Assembly (NCBI RefSeq): GCF_030269645.1
Contig: NZ_BSTR01000019.1
Location: 1-64,000 of the forward strand
DNA from: Actinokineospora sp. NBRC 105648
GTDB taxonomy: Bacteria > Actinomycetota > Actinomycetes > Mycobacteriales > Pseudonocardiaceae
Direction: 5' to 3'
Length of the DNA stretch: 64,000 bases
Shown here piece after piece: positions 1 to 63,880 of this stretch (position 1 is its first letter; the number at the start of each line of letters is the position of its first letter). The notes beneath the pieces are model-generated. The model saw nothing but the letters and a program-made list of their open reading frames with translations. It was not told where the DNA came from and searched no databases. Both the position numbers and the translations under genes were made by a program.

Positions 1-150
1 CCCCTAGAGCACCGCGGTGGTGAAAAAAGGGCGGGTGAAGGGCATCCCCACCACACGGCAAGTTTAGCGGTGCTCTCCCCCCACACGAAGGCAGTCCACC
101 CAATCGAGCACAAACGTAACGGGTCTTGCGTACCAGCGGGCTCGACATTT
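1..150 (+). repeat. Dispersed structured repeat, copy A (partial, X end)
   Basis: This is the right-hand end of a long palindromic repeat whose full copies lie at about 15.9-16.4 kb and 43.4-44.0 kb. The inner stem arms AGAGCACCGC (6-15) and GCGGTGCTCT (67-76) are perfectly complementary. They enclose the conserved segments GGGCATCCCC (40-49) and GGCAAGTTTAGC (57-68). The outer arm CGAAGGCAGTCC (86-97) continues to CCAATCGAGC and then CGTAACGGGTCTTGCG, as at 43.9 kb. The left half lies outside the window. It sits just past the 3' end of the minus-strand gene that stops at 196. The stretch 150-195 is an AT-richer tail without a gene. Confidence 0.85.
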
Positions 151-14047: not shown

Positions 14048-15793
14048 GTGATCACCAGGATGTCGTCGCTGTTCCTGCGCACCCTGCGCGAGGACCCGGC
14101 GGACGCCGAGGTGCCCAGCCACAAGCTGCTGGTGCGCGCCGGGTACGTCCGCCGCGTAGCCCCGGGCGGCTACTCCTGGCTGCCGCTGGGGCTGCGGGTG
14201 CTGCGCAAGGTCGAGCGCGTCGTCCGCGAGGAGATGGACGCGATGGGCGCGCAGGAGATCCAGTTCCCCGCGCTGCTGCCCCGCGAGCCCTACGAGGCGA
14301 CCAACCGCTGGACCGAGTACGGCCCGAACCTGTTCCGCCTCAAGGACCGCAAGGGCGCCGACTACCTGCTCGGCCCCACCCACGAGGAGCTCTTCGCGCT
14401 CACCGTCAAGGGTGAGTACAACTCGTACAAGGACTACCCGGTCACGCTCTACCAGATCCAGACCAAGTACCGCGACGAGGCGCGCCCCCGCGCGGGCATC
14501 CTGCGCGGCCGCGAGTTCCTGATGAAGGACTCGTACTCGTTCGACCTCACCGACGAGGGCCTCTCGGCCAGCTACCAAGCCCACCGCGACACCTACATCC
14601 GGATCTTCGACCGGCTGGGCCTGGACTACGTGATCGTCGCCGCCACCTCCGGCGCGATGGGCGGCTCGGCCTCCGAGGAGTTCCTCGCCGAGGCCGTGAC
14701 CGGCGAGGACACCTTCGTGCGCAGCACCGGCTCGGACTACGCGGCCAACGTCGAGGCCGTGGTCACCCCCGCGCCCCCCGCCCGTCCCCTGGACGGCCTG
14801 CCCGAGGCGCGGAAGCACCACACGCCCGACACCCCGACCATCGACTCGCTCGTGACGCTGCTCAACAAGCTCGACCTGGGCCGCGAGTTCACCGCCGCCG
14901 ACACGCTCAAGAACGTGCTGCTCAAGACCCGCCAGCCCGCCGCCAAGGAGTGGGAGCTGCTCGCCATCGGCCTCCCCGGCGACCGCGAGGTCGACCTCAA
15001 GCGCCTCGAGGCGTCCCTCGAACCCGCGGAGGTCGCCATCCTCGAGGAAGCCGACTTCGCCAAGAACCCGTTCCTGGTCAAGGGCTACATCGGCCCGCGC
15101 GCGCTGCTCGACAACGGCGTCCGCTACCTGGTCGACCCCCGCGTGGTCACCGGCACGTCGTGGGTGACCGGCGCCGACGAGCGCGACCACCACGTGGTCG
15201 ACCTGGTCGCGGGCCGCGACTTCACCCCCGACGGCACCATCGAGGCCGCCGAGGTCCGCGAGGGCGACCCCGCGCCGGACGGCAAGGGCACCCTGGTGGC
15301 CGCCCGCGGCATCGAGATCGGCCACATCTTCCAACTCGGCCGCAAGTACGCCGACGCCTTCGCCCTGGACGCCCTGGGCCCGGACTCCAAGCCGATCCGC
15401 ATCACCATGGGCTCCTACGGCGTCGGCGTCTCGCGACTGGTCGCGGTGATCGCCGAGCAGAGCCACGACGAGCTCGGCCTGATCTGGCCCCGCCAGGTCG
15501 CCCCGGCTGACGTGCACGTGGTGATCGCGGGCAAGGAGGACACCCTCCGGGCAGCGGGCGAGAAGCTGGCCGAAGACCTCTCCGCGGCCGGGCTCGACAT
15601 CATCCTCGACGACCGCACGGCTTCGCCGGGCGTGAAGTTCAAGGACGCAGAGCTCGTCGGCGTCCCGACGATCGTGGTGGTCGGCCGGGGCCTGGCCAAT
15701 GGAGTGGTCGAGGTCAAGGACCGCAGGACTGGTGAGCGCGAAGAGGTCAAGGTCGACGAGGTCGTCGAGCACTTGCGCGCACTGACAAGCTAG
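14048..15793 (+). CDS. proS: Prolyl-tRNA synthetase (bacterial type with editing domain)
   Basis: A class II aminoacyl-tRNA synthetase of 581 residues that charges tRNA-Pro. Motif 1 region is [18 protein letters not shown], motif 2 is [20 protein letters not shown], and motif 3 includes [11 protein letters not shown]. The insertion between motifs 2 and 3 (about 220-400) is the INS editing domain, with KNVLLKT. The C-terminal anticodon-binding domain follows ([10 protein letters not shown] to the end). The GTG at 14048 has AGGAG about ten bases upstream; an in-frame ATG at 14024 is less likely. A terminator and then repeat copy B follow. In mycobacteria proS also lies near rimP; here about 12 kb of accessory genes separate them. 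Confidence 0.96.
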
Positions 15794-15819: not shown

Positions 15820-15868
15820 GGAAAAGGAAGGCTCCCTCCGAAGAAGGAGGTGGCCTTCCTTTTTCCCT
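15820..15868 (+). terminator. Terminator after proS
   Basis: The purine run GGAAAAGGAAGGC with CCTCC is answered by GGAGG and GGCCTTCCTTTTT across a short GAAG loop. The stem ends in a T-run on the plus strand, a classical intrinsic terminator. Confidence 0.85.
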
Positions 15869-16433
15869 TTCCTTACCCTCCCCTTATTTCTCCCTTCTCC
15901 CTTCCTCTCCTCTCTCAATCCTTAAATGCCGATCCCGCTGGTACGCAAGACCCGTTACGTTTGTGCTCGATTGGGTGGACTGCCTTCGTGTGGGGGAGGA
16001 GTACCGCTAAACTTGCCGTGTGGTGGGGATGCCCTTCACCCGCCCTTTTTTCACCACCGCGGTGCTCTAGGGGCCCCGCGCGAAGGCAGTCCAGCCAATC
16101 GAGCCTCCGCTTTACTTGGGCAGGTCATGAGGTGTGCCGCCCTGGGGCCACGGGCTGCTCATCGCTTGGGTTGCCCGAGGAAAAGATGGGGGCTCGATCT
16201 AGTGAACTCGCTTCGTGCGGGGCCCCTAGAGCACCGCGGTGGAGAGAAAAGGGCAGGTAAGGGCATCCCCACCCACGGCAAGTTTAGCGGCGCTCTCCCC
16301 CCACACGAAGCGAGTCCACTAGATCGAGCATCCGTAACGGGACCTTCGTTCCAGCGGGGTCGGCCTCACCGCTGCGGTTAGCTGGGGGACGGGATTCATT
16401 TGCGTGCCAGCGAGGTGGGGAATCCTGCTGCGC
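15869..16433 (-). repeat. Dispersed structured repeat, copy B (complete; inverted relative to A and C)
   Basis: A pyrimidine-rich tract (about 15869-15925) leads into unit X. Its outer arms 15965-15988 and 16081-16104 pair in 23 of 24 positions, and its inner arms GGAGTACCGC and GCGGTGCTCT (about 15998-16068) pair with two G-T wobbles. A spacer follows (16105-16191). Unit Y has outer arms 16192-16217 and 16304-16329 (25 of 26) and inner arms 16228-16237 and 16287-16296. The ends 15936-15959 and 16333-16356 are also inverted repeats. Beyond the Y side are two degenerate 56-bp tandem units whose CCGCTGCGG core begins at 16369 and recurs about 56 bp on. Conserved loop segments are GCTAAACTTGCC and GGGGATGCCCTT. 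It lies between convergent genes. No credible protein-coding gene is present. Confidence 0.88.
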
Positions 16434-16489: not shown

Positions 16490-17452
16490 TCAGCCGGTGT
16501 AGGGCCGGACGCTGGCGATCACCTTGTCCGAGATCTCGGCGGGCAGTGCGTCCGAGACCCCTTGATCCATGTACATCATGAACAGAGCCGTGCTGGACCC
16601 GTTCTTGAAGGCCACCGCGGTGAACAGGATGGTGGGTGATCCGCAGTCTCCGGGCTCGGTGACGGTCATGGTCGCGGTAGCGATGACGGCCGCGAGTTTC
16701 CCGCCCGCGACCTTTGTCGGTGCGGCGGGGCTGAGGGCCACCGGTGCCTTCGACCCGTCCTTGTTCAGCGCTGCGGCGTCGGCGAAGATCTTCACCCCGT
16801 TTGCCGCGGCCTGCTCCGGCGTCGCGCCCCCGGCCGTGACGAAGCCGGCGTGTCCTCGGTAGGAGCCGCGTGAGTTGGGGCAGGCCTCTGGCTTGTACGT
16901 GGTCACCCCGTGCATCACCGCCGACGGCTTACCGGCGTTGTCCTCGAAGCCGACGATCGTCCCGGGCGTCTCGATCTCCCAGTCCTTCGGGACGTCGTAG
17001 GCGACCTGCTCCTTGTACGACAGCACGCCCTGCCAGCCTGCCGTCACCGGCGGCACCGTGATGTCCTCGACGTCGGTCGGGGTGCTGGAGGTGGACGGCG
17101 GTCGACTCGACGTGGTCGGCCTGCGCGCGGTCGTGCGGGTGCTGGTCGTCGTGGTCGGCGCTTCCTCGGTGCTGCTCGGGCCTGCGATCGGGGTCGAGTC
17201 GTCGCGGTTGACCAGGAGGACCGTCGCGGTCACGCCGATCGCGACGACCACGAGTGCGACCAGCGCGACGATCAGCGGCGTCCGGTTGCGCGGCGGCGGC
17301 TGGGGCGGGCCGTACATGCCGAAGCCCTGGTACCCGCCCGGGGGCGGCTGCTGCTGTCCCGGCGGCTGGTAGGCGACCGGTTGCCCGGTCAGCGGGTCCA
17401 CTTGGTACTGCGGCGAGGGCTCCTGCCAGTACGGACCTCCTGGGTTGCTCAT
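16490..17452 (-). CDS. Single-pass membrane protein with Pro-rich cytoplasmic N-terminus
   Basis: A 320-residue protein. Residues 1-55 are Pro/Gln/Gly/Tyr-rich and probably cytoplasmic. A hydrophobic helix (PLIVALVALVVVAIGVTATVL, about 59-79, in two halves) is followed by a Thr/Ser-rich linker to about 130 and a C-terminal globular domain with YKEQVAYDVPKDWEIETP and the ending KVIASVRPYTG. The layout and the Y-x-V-P-x-x-W element recur in the proteins at 18255-19016 and 19036-19755, so these are distant paralogs on the cell surface. Function is unknown. Its ATG overlaps the stop of the HAD gene as ATGA, so the pair is translationally coupled. The 3' end faces repeat copy B. Confidence 0.8.
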   Translation of the reverse strand: MSNPGGPYWQEPSPQYQVDPLTGQPVAYQPPGQQQPPPGGYQGFGMYGPPQPPPRNRTPLIVALVALVVVAIGVTATVLLVNRDDSTPIAGPSSTEEAPTTTTSTRTTARRPTTSSRPPSTSSTPTDVEDITVPPVTAGWQGVLSYKEQVAYDVPKDWEIETPGTIVGFEDNAGKPSAVMHGVTTYKPEACPNSRGSYRGHAGFVTAGGATPEQAAANGVKIFADAAALNKDGSKAPVALSPAAPTKVAGGKLAAVIATATMTVTEPGDCGSPTILFTAVAFKNGSSTALFMMYMDQGVSDALPAEISDKVIASVRPYTG

Positions 17453-42156: not shown

Positions 42157-43248
<1,092 letters not shown>

Positions 43249-43260
43249 ACACAAAGGACC

Positions 43261-43298
43261 CGGTGCCCCGGAGTGCAGCCCACGCCTCCGGGGCACCG
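43261..43298 (+). terminator. Terminator after the ABC ATPase gene
   Basis: CGGTGCCCCGGAG (43261-43273) pairs with CTCCGGGGCACCG (43286-43298) over 13 bp with a 12-base loop, 12 bases after the stop. Confidence 0.8.
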
Positions 43299-43364
43299 CC
43301 ATGTCAGGAGGCTGGGGAGGGGTGGAGGCAATCGCCCATCCTCATCCCGATCTCCACCGCCAAA

Positions 43365-44040
43365 CCGCAGCGGAAAGACCGACCCTGCTGGCACCCAAGC
43401 GAATCCCGTCCCCCAGCAAACCGCAGCGGTTAGGCCGACTCCGCTGGTACCCAAGTGAATCCCGCCTCCGCTGGTACCGCAGCGGTGAGGCCGACCCCGC
43501 TGGTACGCAAGTCCCGTTACGGTTGCTCGATCTAGTGGACTTGCTTCGTGTGGGGGGAGAGTGCCGCTAAACTTGCCGTGGGTGGGGATGCCCTTACCTG
43601 CCCTTTTCTCTCCACCGCGGTGCTCTAGGGGCCCCACACGAAGTGAGTTCACTAGATCGAGCCCTGCTTGTAAATCGGGCAACCCCAACGATGAGCCGCC
43701 AACAAGGTCGACCGTAGGTCGGTGTGCGGCACACCCCACGAGCTGCCCAAGTAAAGCGGAGGCTCGATTGGCTGGACTGCCTTCGCGCGGGGCCCCTAGG
43801 CGACCGCGTGGGGAAAAAGCGTGGGGAGAAGGGCATCCCCACCACTGAGGCAAGTTTAGCGGTCGCCTCCCCCCACACGAAGGCAGTCCACCCAATCGAG
43901 CACAAACGTAACGGGTCTTGCGTACCAGCGGGCTCGGCTTTTGGAGAGTGAAAGCAAGAGCTGAAAGAAGCAGGGCAAGGAAAGAGGAGTGGGAGGTGAG
44001 GGGGAGGGGGAGAAGGGGGAGGGGGTGAGTGGAGGGGGTG
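43365..44040 (+). repeat. Dispersed structured repeat, copy C (complete)
   Basis: Three tandem units of exactly 56 bp start with CCGCAGCGG at 43365, 43421 and 43477. Unit Y follows: outer arms 43525-43550 and 43637-43662 pair throughout with three G-T wobbles, and inner arms 43558-43567 and 43617-43626 pair with two wobbles. The spacer is 43663-43761. Unit X has outer arms 43762-43785 and 43878-43901 (one C-C mismatch) and perfect inner arms GGCGACCGC (43799-43807) and GCGGTCGCC (43859-43867). The X inner stem is GAGCACCGC/GCGGTGCTC in copy A, so both arms changed together. The end CGTAACGGGTCTTGCGTACC matches copy A. A purine-rich tract (about 43945-44040) closes the element. The region between 43249 and 44056 holds no gene. 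Confidence 0.88.
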
Positions 44041-44056
44041 GAGATAGGAATAGAGA

Positions 44057-44569
44057 TTAGTCCTTGCTGCGTGATCGGAATGCTGCCACGTGTACCCGGT
44101 TCGCGCAGCGAGGTGAGCAGAAGCGCTTGGCCCGGTTCGTAGAGCCGTCCAGGAAGTAGTTCCCGCAGTCCTCAGCCGCGCACTGCCCAAACCGGTTGAG
44201 TCCATAATGGACCACCGCCTGGGCCAACCCCCACGCCGACGCGGCAGCAGCCTCAGTCGCCGGTGGAGCATCGGCGTCCGCCACGTGGATGTGCCAGGTC
44301 CCCGTGTGCCCCGAAAGTCGCGGGCGTGGCGAGTGCGCGCTGAGCAGTGCGTTCACCGCCGCCAACACCCGGTCCGCGTCCCCGGCCACCGCTGCCGCCA
44401 GTACCTCGCGCACTGACGATGCGACTTCCCGCAGGACGGTCAGGTCGGCCGAGGTCACCCGTCCTGCCCACCAGGGCTCGTCGTGCAAGGCGGCCGCCAG
44501 GTCGGGGACGTCTTCCAGGTCGGCGTTCGCCAAGCGGAGGGCGACGTCCAGGTAATCAGCGTTGTCCAA
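44057..44569 (-). CDS. CGNR zinc-finger transcriptional regulator
   Basis: A 170-residue protein with an N-terminal stress-sensing-like ABATE domain and a C-terminal CGNR finger (GQCAAEDCGNYFLDGSTNRA followed by KRFCSPRCANRVHVAAFR), in which cysteines bind zinc. Such proteins bind DNA; targets are unknown. The start is TTG at 44569, supported by AAGGA five bases upstream. It is divergent from the MATE exporter gene, a possible target; only 62 bases separate them. Confidence 0.88.
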   Translation of the reverse strand: MDNADYLDVALRLANADLEDVPDLAAALHDEPWWAGRVTSADLTVLREVASSVREVLAAAVAGDADRVLAAVNALLSAHSPRPRLSGHTGTWHIHVADADAPPATEAAAASAWGLAQAVVHYGLNRFGQCAAEDCGNYFLDGSTNRAKRFCSPRCANRVHVAAFRSRSKD

Positions 44570-54056: not shown

Positions 54057-54143
54057 TCTGTAATCGAAAAACGACAGCAAGCAAAGACGACAGGGCCACA
54101 CCGCGCCGCGCCCACGGGACCAGTTCGCCGGTCCTCGGTAGTG

Positions 54144-54174
54144 GTCCCCGAAGAGCCATGAGGGCTCCGGGGAC
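54144..54174 (+). ncRNA. Structured hairpin in the pnp leader
   Basis: GTCCCCG-AA-GAGCC (54144-54157) pairs with GGCTC-CGGGGAC (54163-54174): twelve pairs with a two-base bulge. In other bacteria RNase III cleaves a pnp leader stem for autoregulation; the position fits such a role. Whether it is cut here is not shown. The rest of 54057-54256 has no gene. Confidence 0.5.
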
Positions 54175-54256
54175 TTCGATCGAAGACCGGCCTCGTCCGA
54201 ACCGCGACCCCGTGCCCGGGTAGCGCGCAGGCCCGAAGACGAGGAGTTTCACCTAC

Positions 54257-56508
54257 ATGACAGACATCGCTGTGCACGAGTCGACCGCCGTGATCGACAA
54301 CGGCAAGTACGGCACGCGCACCATCCGCTTCGAGACCGGGCGGCTCGCCCGGCAGGCCGCCGGAAGCGTCGTGGCCTACCTCGACGAGGACACCATGCTG
54401 CTCTCGGCGACCACCGCCTCCAAGCAGCCCAAGGAGCACTTCGACTTCTTCCCGCTGACGGTGGACGTCGAGGAGCGCATGTACGCCGTGGGTCGCATCC
54501 CCGGCGCGTTCTTCCGCCGCGAGGGTCGCCCCTCCACCGACGCGGTGCTCACCTGCCGGCTGATCGACCGCCCGCTGCGCCCGTCCTTCGTGGACGGTCT
54601 GCGCAACGAGATCCAGGTCGTCATCACCGTGCAGAGCCTGAACCCGCAGGACCTCTACGACGTGCTCGCGATCAACGCCGCGTCGGCCTCCACCCAGCTC
54701 TCCGGCCTGCCCTTCTCCGGCCCGATCGGCGGCGTCCGGGTCGCGCTGATCGAGGGCCAGTGGGTGGCCTTCCCGACCCACGAGCAGCTCGCGAAGGCCG
54801 TGTTCGACATGGTCGTCGCCGGTCGCGTGGTCGGCTCCGACGTCGCGATCATGATGGTCGAGGCCGAGGCCACCGAGAACGTGATCGACCTGATCGCCGA
54901 GGGCGCCCAGGCGCCCACCGAGGACGTCGTCGCGGCGGGCCTCGAGGCCGCCAAGCCGTTCATCAAGGTCCTCTGCGACGCGCAGGCCGAGCTGGCGGGC
55001 AACGCCGCCAAGCCGACCCGCGACTTCCCGACCTTCCCGGCCTACCAGCCGGACGCGTTCGAGGCCGTCGAGCGGGCCGTCACCGAGGAGTTGGCCAAGG
55101 CCCTGACCATCGGCGACAAGCAGGAGCGCGAGACCCGCCTGGACGAGATCAAGGCCGAGACCCTGGTCAAGGTCGGCGCGGTCGAGGGCGGTGCCTTCGA
55201 CGGTCGCGAGAAGGAGATCGGCGCGGCGTTCCGCTCGCTGAACAAGAAGCTGGTCCGCCAGCGCATCCTGCGCGACAAGGTGCGCATCGACGGCCGCGGC
55301 CTGACCGACATCCGGTCGCTCTCGGCCGAGGTCGCGCTCATCCCGCGGGCGCACGGCTCGGCGCTGTTCGAGCGCGGCGAGACCCAGATCCTGGGTGTCA
55401 CCACGCTGAACATGCTGCGCCTGGAGCAGCAGATCGACTCGCTCTCGCCCGAGACGCACAAGCGCTACATGCACCACTACAACTTCCCGCCGTTCTCCAC
55501 CGGCGAGACCGGCCGCGTCGGCTCGCCGAAGCGGCGCGAGATCGGCCACGGCGCGCTCGCCGAGCGCGCGCTGGTGCCGGTGCTGCCCAAGCGCGACGAG
55601 TTCCCCTACGCGATCCGCCAGGTCTCCGAGGCGCTGGGCTCCAACGGCTCCACCTCGATGGGCTCGGTCTGCGCGTCGACCATGTCGCTGCTCAACGCCG
55701 GTGTGCCGCTCAAGGCGCCGGTCTCGGGCATCGCCATGGGCCTGGTGTCCGATGAGGTCGACGGCAAGACCGAGTACGTCGCGCTGACCGACATCCTCGG
55801 TGCCGAGGACGCGTTCGGCGACATGGACTTCAAGGTCGCGGGCACCGCGGAGTTCGTCACCGCGCTGCAGCTGGACACCAAGCTCGACGGCATCCCCTCC
55901 GACGTGCTCGCCTCGGCCCTGGGCCAGGCGCGCGACGCGCGGCACACCATCCTCGAGGTGATGGCCGAGGCCATCGACGCCCCCGACGAGATGAGCCCGT
56001 ACTCGCCGCGCGTCACCAGCGTCAAGATCCCGGTGGACAAGATCGGCGAGGTCATCGGCCCGAAGGGCAAGATGATCAACTCGATCACCGAGCAGACCGG
56101 TGCCGACATCTCGATCGAGGACGACGGCACGATCTACGTCGGTGCCGCGGACGGCCCGTCCGCCGAGGCCGCCATCGGCCTGATCAACGCCATCGCGAAC
56201 CCGCAGCTGCCCAAGGTCGGCGAGCGCTTCCTGGGCACGGTCGTGAAGACCGCCGCCTTCGGCGCGTTCGTGTCCCTGCTGCCGGGCAAGGACGGCCTGG
56301 TGCACATCTCCAAGCTGGGCAACGGCAAGCGGATCAACAAGGTGGAGGACGTCGTCGCGGTGGGCGACAAGCTCCGCGTCGAGATCGCCGACATCGACCA
56401 GCGCGGCAAGATCAGCCTGGTCCTGGTCAACGAGGAGGACGCCGCCGCGCCCGCCGGGTCCGCGGACGCGCCGGTCGAGGCAGCCGAGGTCGAGGCGGCT
56501 CCCGCCCA

Positions 56509-62834: not shown

Positions 62835-63812
62835 GTGTGCGTGTCCGTCGTCGCTGATCACGTGCTGGTGCAGGGCAGTCTTCGGGATGCGCACACGGCC
62901 GCCGCGGCGGCCGTGTTCGAGCTGGCGGCCGCCGGTTACCTGACGATCGCCCCTGACGACGACCGCTACCTCAGCGTGGTGTTAGTCCGCACCGCCAAGC
63001 CCGCTCTTGGTCTCCAACCGGAGGAGCGGGTATTGCTCTCGGCGCTGTTCGGGGCAGGTGGTGAAGGCGCGCTCCGAGTACTCGGCGGTGAGTGCCGGGT
63101 GCCGGTGGCGCAGACCGTGATGGGGCTCGCCCGGCGCAGGTTGGCCGAGAGCGGCCTCATCAGGACGTGGAAGCCCAGGGTGGTCCGGCGGTGGATCGTC
63201 GCGGGTTGCGTCGCCCTGGCCTGCGCCGTGGCATTGGTCGTCTGGGTGGTTTCCGGGCACGTAGGAGTGTTCCTCCTCGTCTTGTTCAACCTTTCGGTGG
63301 CCGCCGGGGCCCTGATCACCACCGTCGGGATCATGGTCGACCGGCCTCGTCGGGTCTACCGGACCTCGCTGGGGGCGGTCCACGCCCGGCCGGTGATCGC
63401 GTTCTGCCGGCGCGCGCGCCGCAGGGACGTGGCCAGCTTCATGGTCTACGGCTTGTGGTTGCGCGAGAAGTCCTGGCCGGAGAGCCGGGTCGCGAACCCC
63501 GGTGACCAACCGGCGTGGTGGCGCGGCACCCGGTGGCCGGAGGAGGCGAAGCGCGTTCACGACGTGTTCGATGTGCTCGCGTCCGCCTTGGCCCAGTCGG
63601 TGACCCAGTCCGGCTACGAGGTCCAAGCGGTCGCCTCCGGCGAGCTGGGTGGGTCGAGCGCCGCCCCGGCCGATCCCGACCACGACGCGGCCGACCGCTA
63701 CGTGGGCGATTGGGACGGTGGCGCGTGGGGTGGGCACGGCGGGGGCGGGTCCGTCGACTTCGACGGGTTTGACGGGTTCGACGGTGGGGTGGATTTCGGG
63801 TACGAGCCTTGA
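62835..63812 (+). CDS. Membrane protein with Gly/Asp-rich tail (TIGR04222/DUF2207-like layout)
   Basis: A 325-residue protein. An N-terminal helical domain (VLVQGSLRDAHTAAAAAVFE, LQPEERVLLSALFGAG) precedes two membrane helices (WIVAGCVALACAVALVVWVV; VFLLVLFNLSVAAGALITTV). A cytoplasmic domain and a tail with repeats of DFDGFDGFDGG follow. This resembles TIGR04222/DUF2207 proteins, which are uncharacterised; it is not a firm match. The stop codon lies inside the first GACCC repeat. GTG at 62841 is an alternative start. Confidence 0.7.
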   Translation: MCVSVVADHVLVQGSLRDAHTAAAAAVFELAAAGYLTIAPDDDRYLSVVLVRTAKPALGLQPEERVLLSALFGAGGEGALRVLGGECRVPVAQTVMGLARRRLAESGLIRTWKPRVVRRWIVAGCVALACAVALVVWVVSGHVGVFLLVLFNLSVAAGALITTVGIMVDRPRRVYRTSLGAVHARPVIAFCRRARRRDVASFMVYGLWLREKSWPESRVANPGDQPAWWRGTRWPEEAKRVHDVFDVLASALAQSVTQSGYEVQAVASGELGGSSAAPADPDHDAADRYVGDWDGGAWGGHGGGGSVDFDGFDGFDGGVDFGYEP

Positions 63813-63880
63813 CCCGACCCGACCCGACCCGACCCGACCCGACCCGACCCGGACTGGACTGGACTGGACTGGACTGGACT
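63811..63880. repeat. Pentanucleotide microsatellites (GACCC)8 and (GGACT)6
   Basis: Eight perfect GACCC units (63811-63850) directly followed by six perfect GGACT units (63851-63880). The first GA belongs to the TGA stop of the preceding gene. Both are prone to slippage. The remaining 63881-64000 is GC-rich with no supported gene. Confidence 0.95.

Follow-up and report, generated by a model that had tools for sequence, protein, structure and literature searches.

Structured hairpin repeats beyond gene 3' ends in Actinokineospora and their association with DUF222-HNH genes in Kutzneria

The window analysed here comprises bases 1-64000 of contig 19 in the 8.43-Mb draft genome of Actinokineospora sp. 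NBRC 105648 (G000), and it carries three copies, A, B and C, of a structured repeat (Table 1). Copies B and C each consist of two inverted hairpins of about 140 nt that have 5' leaders and are separated by a spacer; in copy A there is one hairpin, truncated by the start of the contig. On the left of B is a forward-strand gene ending at 15793, which we take from its sequence to be prolyl-tRNA synthetase (proS), and on its right a reverse-strand gene ending at 16490. Copy C is flanked by a forward-strand gene that ends at 43248 and looks like an ABC-type ATPase, and by a reverse-strand gene that ends at 44057; copy A is located 3' of the stop of a reverse-strand gene at 196. These gene ends confirm the first-pass annotation of this DNA, which had placed B and C between convergent genes and A beyond a gene 3' end. 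The genes preceding B and C have, as judged by folding, hairpins of their own ahead of the element. The single architecture that had been proposed for the three copies also stands, as a covariance model (R1) matches all of them, the four whole hairpins at 127-134 bits and A at 86, with the match of the two B hairpins arising by construction because both went into building R1. Some details of the earlier description have to be amended: the 56-bp tandem units are clear in C but TRF lists none in B, the purine-rich tract is present in C but B instead has a pyrimidine-rich tract in front, and the outer stem, put at 24-26 bp, actually has about 29-31 pairs when G-U is counted. The inner stem has 10 pairs in the folds, in agreement with the 9-10 bp given for it.

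Table 1. Features of the repeat copies and adjoining hairpins in the window
Feature	Positions	Strand	Basis
Copy A hairpin, cut at 3' side	1..106	-	R1 85.6 bits
Copy A 5' leader, near-identical to that of C's - hairpin	107..148	-	sequence reading; leader common to copies
Terminator-like hairpin and T run, gene upstream of B	15826..15866	+	fold
Copy B 5' leader of hairpin Y	15925..15967	+	start of repeated 456 bp
Copy B hairpin Y	15968..16101	+	R1 131.6 bits; fold -90.6 kcal/mol sense, -72.0 antisense
Copy B spacer, Y to X	16102..16194	.	sequence reading
Copy B hairpin X	16195..16326	-	R1 133.5 bits; fold -94.9 sense, -77.8 antisense
Copy B 5' leader of hairpin X	16327..16380	-	end of repeated 456 bp
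Hairpin belonging to gene upstream of C	43260..43303	+	fold z -4.5 for 43255-43310
Copy C 56-bp tandem array, 2.7 copies, upstream of + hairpin	43361..43512	.	TRF
Copy C hairpin, X-type stem	43528..43659	+	R1 126.7 bits; fold -84.2 sense, -62.7 antisense
Copy C spacer	43660..43764	.	sequence reading
Copy C hairpin, Y-type stem	43765..43898	-	R1 127.4 bits; fold -99.7 sense, -89.1 antisense
Copy C 5' leader of - hairpin	43899..43941	-	edge of 456-bp match
Copy C purine-rich flank	43945..44058	.	sequence reading; TRF 43986-44038

Across the family, the hairpin unit is about 115-160 nt long, those in the window being close to 140 nt. It consists of a short 5' leader, outer and inner stems of about 20-33 and 10-14 pairs, respectively, and a GC-rich apical hairpin. 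An asymmetric 3' loop has AGGGG ahead of CCCC, the internal loop holds TAAACTTGCC or a TAAGCT-like segment, and units stand alone or as inverted pairs. For the four whole hairpins in B and C, folding energies are -84 to -100 kcal/mol on the sense strand versus -63 to -89 on the antisense strand, with z-scores against dinucleotide shuffles of -8.2 to -10.7 and -4.6 to -8.5, respectively; none of 200 shuffles matched any of the four in the sense orientation. In an alignment (A1) of 32 hairpins from 12 Actinokineospora genomes, 10 of the hairpins being from G000, 26 of the 33 modelled pairs vary on both sides and 96.7% of cells pair, levels that 0 of 500 shuffles reach by any measure, while sliding the partner by 1-3 columns leaves 38-45% paired. 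Two pairs have changed on both arms and still pair at an orthologous site in two close species (L156 versus L176).

Counted by sequence and not by event, and with the strand assigned via the AGGGG-CCCC anchor and not via the stem, the non-canonical stem pairs comprise 268 G·U versus 28 A·C overall. Over stem pairs 5-27, the 86 hairpins of G000 have 164 G-U versus 2 A-C and 30 other mismatches, and 147 hairpins from elsewhere have 104 versus 26 and 81 others, the latter with extra chance mismatches because some of their stems are shorter than 27 pairs. Since equal use of both strands would favour neither G-U nor A-C, selection seems to act on one defined single strand, RNA or ssDNA. Our comparisons establish that both the structure and its polarity are conserved over genera. 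The earlier statement that the element matches no known RNA holds at Rfam gathering scores, where the sole match in the window is the Actino-pnp RNA (RF01688), a known cis-regulatory RNA at 54127-54191, upstream of a gene at 54272. Below the gathering score, only animal and plant miRNA precursor families appear on the element, and these we take to be long-stem artefacts.

The repeat is abundant in its own genome. A 456-bp query from copy B finds itself and 39 other places in G000 at 87-92% identity, one of them shorter (the best 40 of 341 candidates), and an exact core pattern has 163 matches (81 + 82) against 0 for the reversed control, and thus repeats beyond chance. A core match falls in the first 350 bases of contigs C9, C13, C18, C19, C25, C26, C29, C30, C31 and C39, and with several contigs of G000 starting in or beside a copy, the hairpins may partly explain the assembly breaks. 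Exact cores were absent from the 60 relatives searched. At a relaxed threshold (E <= 10), blastn within the genus led to loci where a diverged hairpin fold is readable, and R1 (E <= 0.001) has matches in 15 of 16 Actinokineospora genomes, from 12 to at least 150 each. The figures, which count matches and in which weak rows may be opposite-strand echoes because the hairpins are near-palindromes, are at least 150 each for G000, G005 and G015, 136 for G002, 135 each for G011 and G013, 119 for G008, 110 for G014, 103 for G004, 85 for G009, 74 for G006, 38 for G001, 16 for G007, 13 for G003 and 12 for G010. G012 alone among the 16 has no R1 match. Distinct hairpin places among the matches listed number 62 in G006 and 88 in G014.

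Beyond the genus, R1 under strict filters finds the hairpin in 32 of 200 genomes and 10 of 46 genera of a family sample, 10 of the 32 genomes being from the window's genus. Loci fetched from 20 of the 22 genomes of other genera mostly have a common plan when read by eye: an outer stem ending GGGG or GGAG, an inner stem, a TAAGCT-like loop and a 3' AGGGG-CCCC or AGAGG-CTCC, to which L133, L136 and L137 conform less well. A second model (R2) matches 6 of 394 genomes in a class sample, two from the window's genus and four from another family (f33), which have a look-alike hairpin with a similar fold. The covariance-model search suggested by the first-pass annotation thus gives matches across G000, the genus and the family, and the repeats are not local to the window. 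Hairpin sequences form species-specific subfamilies in which pairing is kept despite the differences in sequence, and in G006 at least two subfamilies with different stems coexist. A blastn search with one hairpin against plasmid and phage collections gave no match.

The copies are placed in a distinctive manner relative to genes. We examined 111 hairpins (among the matches listed) in the complete genomes G006 and G014, 110 of them with both neighbours called, by a purpose-written codon-usage script instead of a standard gene finder, and found 108 of the 110 beyond at least one gene 3' end. The spacings are 61 convergent, 30 tandem sense, 17 tandem antisense and 2 divergent, and a background of 16 stretches of 20 kb has 29 convergent, 126 tandem and 36 divergent ones (convergent versus divergent, Fisher p 1e-11). 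In other genera, Kutzneria excluded, 36 of 40 loci were resolved, as 19 tandem sense, 11 convergent, 6 tandem antisense and 0 divergent. Sense thus prevails over antisense in tandem cases by 30:17 in the genus (p 0.08), 19:6 elsewhere (p 0.015) and 49:23 pooled (p 0.003). Of the 28 elements kept for G000, 16 are inward pairs between convergent genes, and 21 of the 22 pairs kept are oriented inward.

This placement is one ground for reading the hairpin as a host 3'-end RNA element, which would be transcribed at mRNA ends, would protect or terminate the message or be cut by RNase III, and whose copies would be retained and homogenised by gene conversion. The G-U polarity is compatible with RNA, the sense strand is favoured as just described, and in two of four orthologous pairs (L154/L177 and L157/L195) the hairpin is clearly better conserved than its flanks, the difference being small or mixed in the other two (L155/L175 and L156/L176). 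However, 23 of the 72 tandem copies lie in antisense, G012 has no match, and both B and C follow a gene that is already equipped with a hairpin ahead of the element. The proS site argues in the same direction: with 1.5 kb searched on each side, hairpins past its 3' end occur only in G000, leaving 15 of 16 genus genomes unfilled, and G002 has one hairpin on the 5' side of its proS homologue. Such an element would also leave the outward hairpin pairs around Kutzneria DUF222 genes, described below, unexplained. The 3'-end RNA proposed at first pass therefore keeps its support from position, polarity and sense bias but is weakened by the hairpins that the genes before B and C already have, and we regard it as unlikely. 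The chromosome-organising site that had also been suggested, or more generally a protein-binding DNA site, would fit the high copy number, the conserved loops and the dispersed location. Against this, hairpin strands relative to the replichore are split 31/31 in G006 and 40/48 in G014, with no bias when the origin is assumed at base 1; position is not conserved at proS, a species of the genus lacks a match, and selection appears to act on one strand, making this reading extremely improbable.

Comparison of orthologous sites shows both persistence and change. Between G093 and G144, which are about 94% identical, four of four compared hairpin sites are common to both, so turnover is not fast. 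At one of the four sites filled in these two genomes, their congener G031 has no hairpin, its empty site measuring 89 bp versus 404 in the query (about 315 bp absent). The unit is delimited by the stem end and by the 5' leader, which is about 26 nt long in the main subfamily of G006 and G014. We looked for target duplications of 2-9 bp in 76 copies, whose boundaries are fuzzy, and found none clearly above expectation. Several copies, by eye, have repeats of the leader or tail alongside; at L227, L236, L242 and L251 of G006, the element's own leader or 3'-end repeats adjoin the copies, like repeated addition of partial ends, and the 56-bp array of copy C may be of the same kind. In a separate observation, L231 and L244, far apart in G006, have the same 5' flank, which is itself small-hairpin-like, and a longer unit may have been copied there.

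One route by which such a repeat could spread is through RNA, with the hairpin transcript copied into DNA by an unlinked reverse transcriptase in the manner of a bacterial SINE. The RNA-like, strand-specific fold would suit this, as would the fact that no linked enzyme was seen in most genera and the partial sense bias relative to upstream genes. Nevertheless, no reverse transcriptase is prominent among the genes adjoining copies and the same 76 copies have no clear target duplication; we consider this route highly improbable.

Clustering of the genes adjoining hairpins gave one unusual family, DUF222 (PF02720), in Kutzneria, a genus of Pseudonocardiaceae; no transposase family was prominent among these genes. 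Starting from the hairpins, a DUF222-HNH gene adjoins 30 of the 31 Kutzneria loci examined, made up of 19 of 20 from four genomes, five of five further places, which were picked for two hairpins 1.4-1.9 kb apart, and six of six remaining listed hairpins of G145 and G161; the exception (L324) is cut by a contig end. Starting from the genes, 26 of 29 DUF222 loci in three genomes carry one hairpin or more, 16 of them on both sides of the gene, a count that includes L391, a gene fragment with wider spacing. Three loci (L374, L376 and L393) have no hairpin, L393 being a 41-residue piece of DUF222. Kutzneria sp. CA-103260 accounts for 26 of the 29 loci, with 70-100% identity to the query protein. 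Once 10 weak opposite-strand echoes are left out, all hairpins point outward, 25 of 25 to the left of the gene being on the reverse strand and 17 of 17 to the right on the forward strand. The PF02720 protein of these units has the HNH residues, and its Cys, Asp and His residues are conserved in 32 aligned DUF222 proteins. An AlphaFold2 model of DUF222 (pLDDT 85, pTM 0.68) has weak likeness to the DNA-binding parts of Noc/ParB and to the HNH parts of IscB and McrA-type enzymes, similarities of a predicted model that we use as a lead only. In G145, also Kutzneria, a DDE_5 transposase gene (L127:1697-2890) directly adjoins a hairpin-DUF222 unit. The link between hairpin and DUF222-HNH gene in Kutzneria is solid as an association, and the mechanism behind it is only a proposal.

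Outside Kutzneria, the link does not hold. PF02720 occurs in 2 of 16 Actinokineospora genomes (one gene in G000 and two in G006), R2 finds no hairpin around these three genes, and no gene-carrying hairpin unit was found in the window's genus. None of the 11 hairpin loci of G126, and likewise none of the 11 of G181, has DUF222 next to it, and the lone hairpin locus seen with it in other genera is L130 (G022). DUF222 as the general mover of the family is thus rejected, and it would be at most the mover of one branch. It is also conceivable that two independent things have met, namely old structured repeats and a homing-type DUF222-HNH gene that inserted in an outward hairpin pair and now carries the pair along. 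In keeping with this, L130 stands alone outside Kutzneria, outward pairs without the gene exist in other genera (L362 and L363), and, among the 120 matches listed, the named proteins of at least 52% identity are all from Kutzneria, the next named one being at 41%. However, the same type of hairpin accompanies the DUF222 of L320 in another Kutzneria genome (G034), a protein with just 38% identity to the reference; a single recent capture therefore does not account for the link, and we hold two independent origins of this sort to be quite unlikely.

Our own reading, to which we lean without great confidence, is that the hairpins form a MITE-like family of structured repeats that are, or once were, mobile. 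Among the three suggestions of the first-pass annotation, a mobile structured DNA is the one best supported, because the copies are dispersed, form species-specific subfamilies, have orthologous sites both filled and empty and, in Kutzneria, stand as outward pairs around a nuclease gene. Counting against mobility are the inward orientation of the G000 pairs as opposed to the outward one in Kutzneria, the lack of a clear target duplication, the null result of one hairpin against plasmids and phages, and the fact that strains of one species gave no sign of an insertion difference. The Kutzneria units are best read as the gene-carrying form of the MITE-like family. The functional form would be one strand when single-stranded, as RNA or ssDNA; DUF222-HNH may bind the folded or palindromic ends and cut DNA so that the unit spreads, with the hairpins lacking a gene as its non-autonomous relatives. 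The 3'-end location would then reflect tolerance, combined with a degree of preference for sense placement at transcribed genes. A bolder version, which we find possible but rather doubtful, is a new class of selfish element in which the outward, RNA-like hairpins are the ends recognised and cut by DUF222-HNH, a nuclease that would combine a ParB/Noc-like DNA-binding part with an HNH part, and the lone hairpins are its hyperabundant non-autonomous passenger in Pseudonocardiaceae and beyond.

Several known systems resemble the repeat in part. In IS200/IS605 elements and their palindrome-associated derivatives, the folded single strand is active and hairpins stand at both ends; the hairpins described here are far larger, and no replichore bias was seen in two genomes, on the assumption of an origin at base 1. 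The ERIC, NEMIS and YPAL repeats are imperfect palindromes of about 100-170 bp, MITE-like, intergenic and capable of forming hairpin RNA. Our hairpins differ from them in the covariation of their stems across genera, conserved internal loops, occurrence in another phylum and the existence of a gene-carrying form. REP/REPIN-RAYT (TnpA-REP) systems consist of high-copy intergenic palindromes, species-specific and found as singles and inverted pairs, with the enzyme gene flanked by repeats in some genomes. The present family is likewise high-copy, intergenic, single or paired in inverted orientation and species-specific, and brackets an enzyme gene in some genomes. However, REP/REPIN palindromes are 20-40 bp long (PMC3733652), whereas the hairpins here, at about 140 nt with structured internal loops, fall outside a short-palindrome definition, and the linked gene is DUF222-HNH. 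The Kutzneria unit gene belongs to the same Pfam family, PF02720, as the REP13E12/13E12 repeat family of actinobacteria; the portions of the REP13E12 literature found mention no hairpin ends, and our hairpins mostly lack a gene. REP13E12/HNH/DUF222 is named among repeats near insertion sequences in one paper (PMC10589994), and the words HNH and DUF222 are absent from the text of another on Kutzneria albida (PMC4210621). With IscB/HEARO, the family has in common an HNH nuclease adjoining a structured element, and the HNH parts are somewhat alike in the weak, model-based comparison. However, Pfam gives no RuvC part in the scanned DUF222 proteins, and the structure here lies on both sides and has no Rfam family at gathering score.

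The open-access literature, as far as its text was available, yielded nothing on these hairpins or on hairpins around DUF222, and the repeat is a real, large family that is undescribed in the literature searched. An element of this kind, with 150 or more matches in a single genome and clear covariation across genera, has neither an Rfam family nor a paper that we could find in open-access sources. If it is mobile, the MITE-like repeats of bacteria would gain a class with a far more elaborate fold, and its link to DUF222-HNH would suggest, in a form open to direct experiment, what that widespread family of unknown function acts on. Should it prove to be no more than a 3'-end RNA element, a large RNA family would nonetheless have been overlooked. 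Were the new-class reading true, the large and functionally blank DUF222/REP13E12 family would obtain its substrate. G012, a member of the genus with no hairpin match, offers a natural control for comparisons of gene content. Elsewhere in the window, two perfect 5-bp tandem arrays, GACCC (8.2 copies) and GGACT (6 copies), abut at 63811-63880 (TRF).
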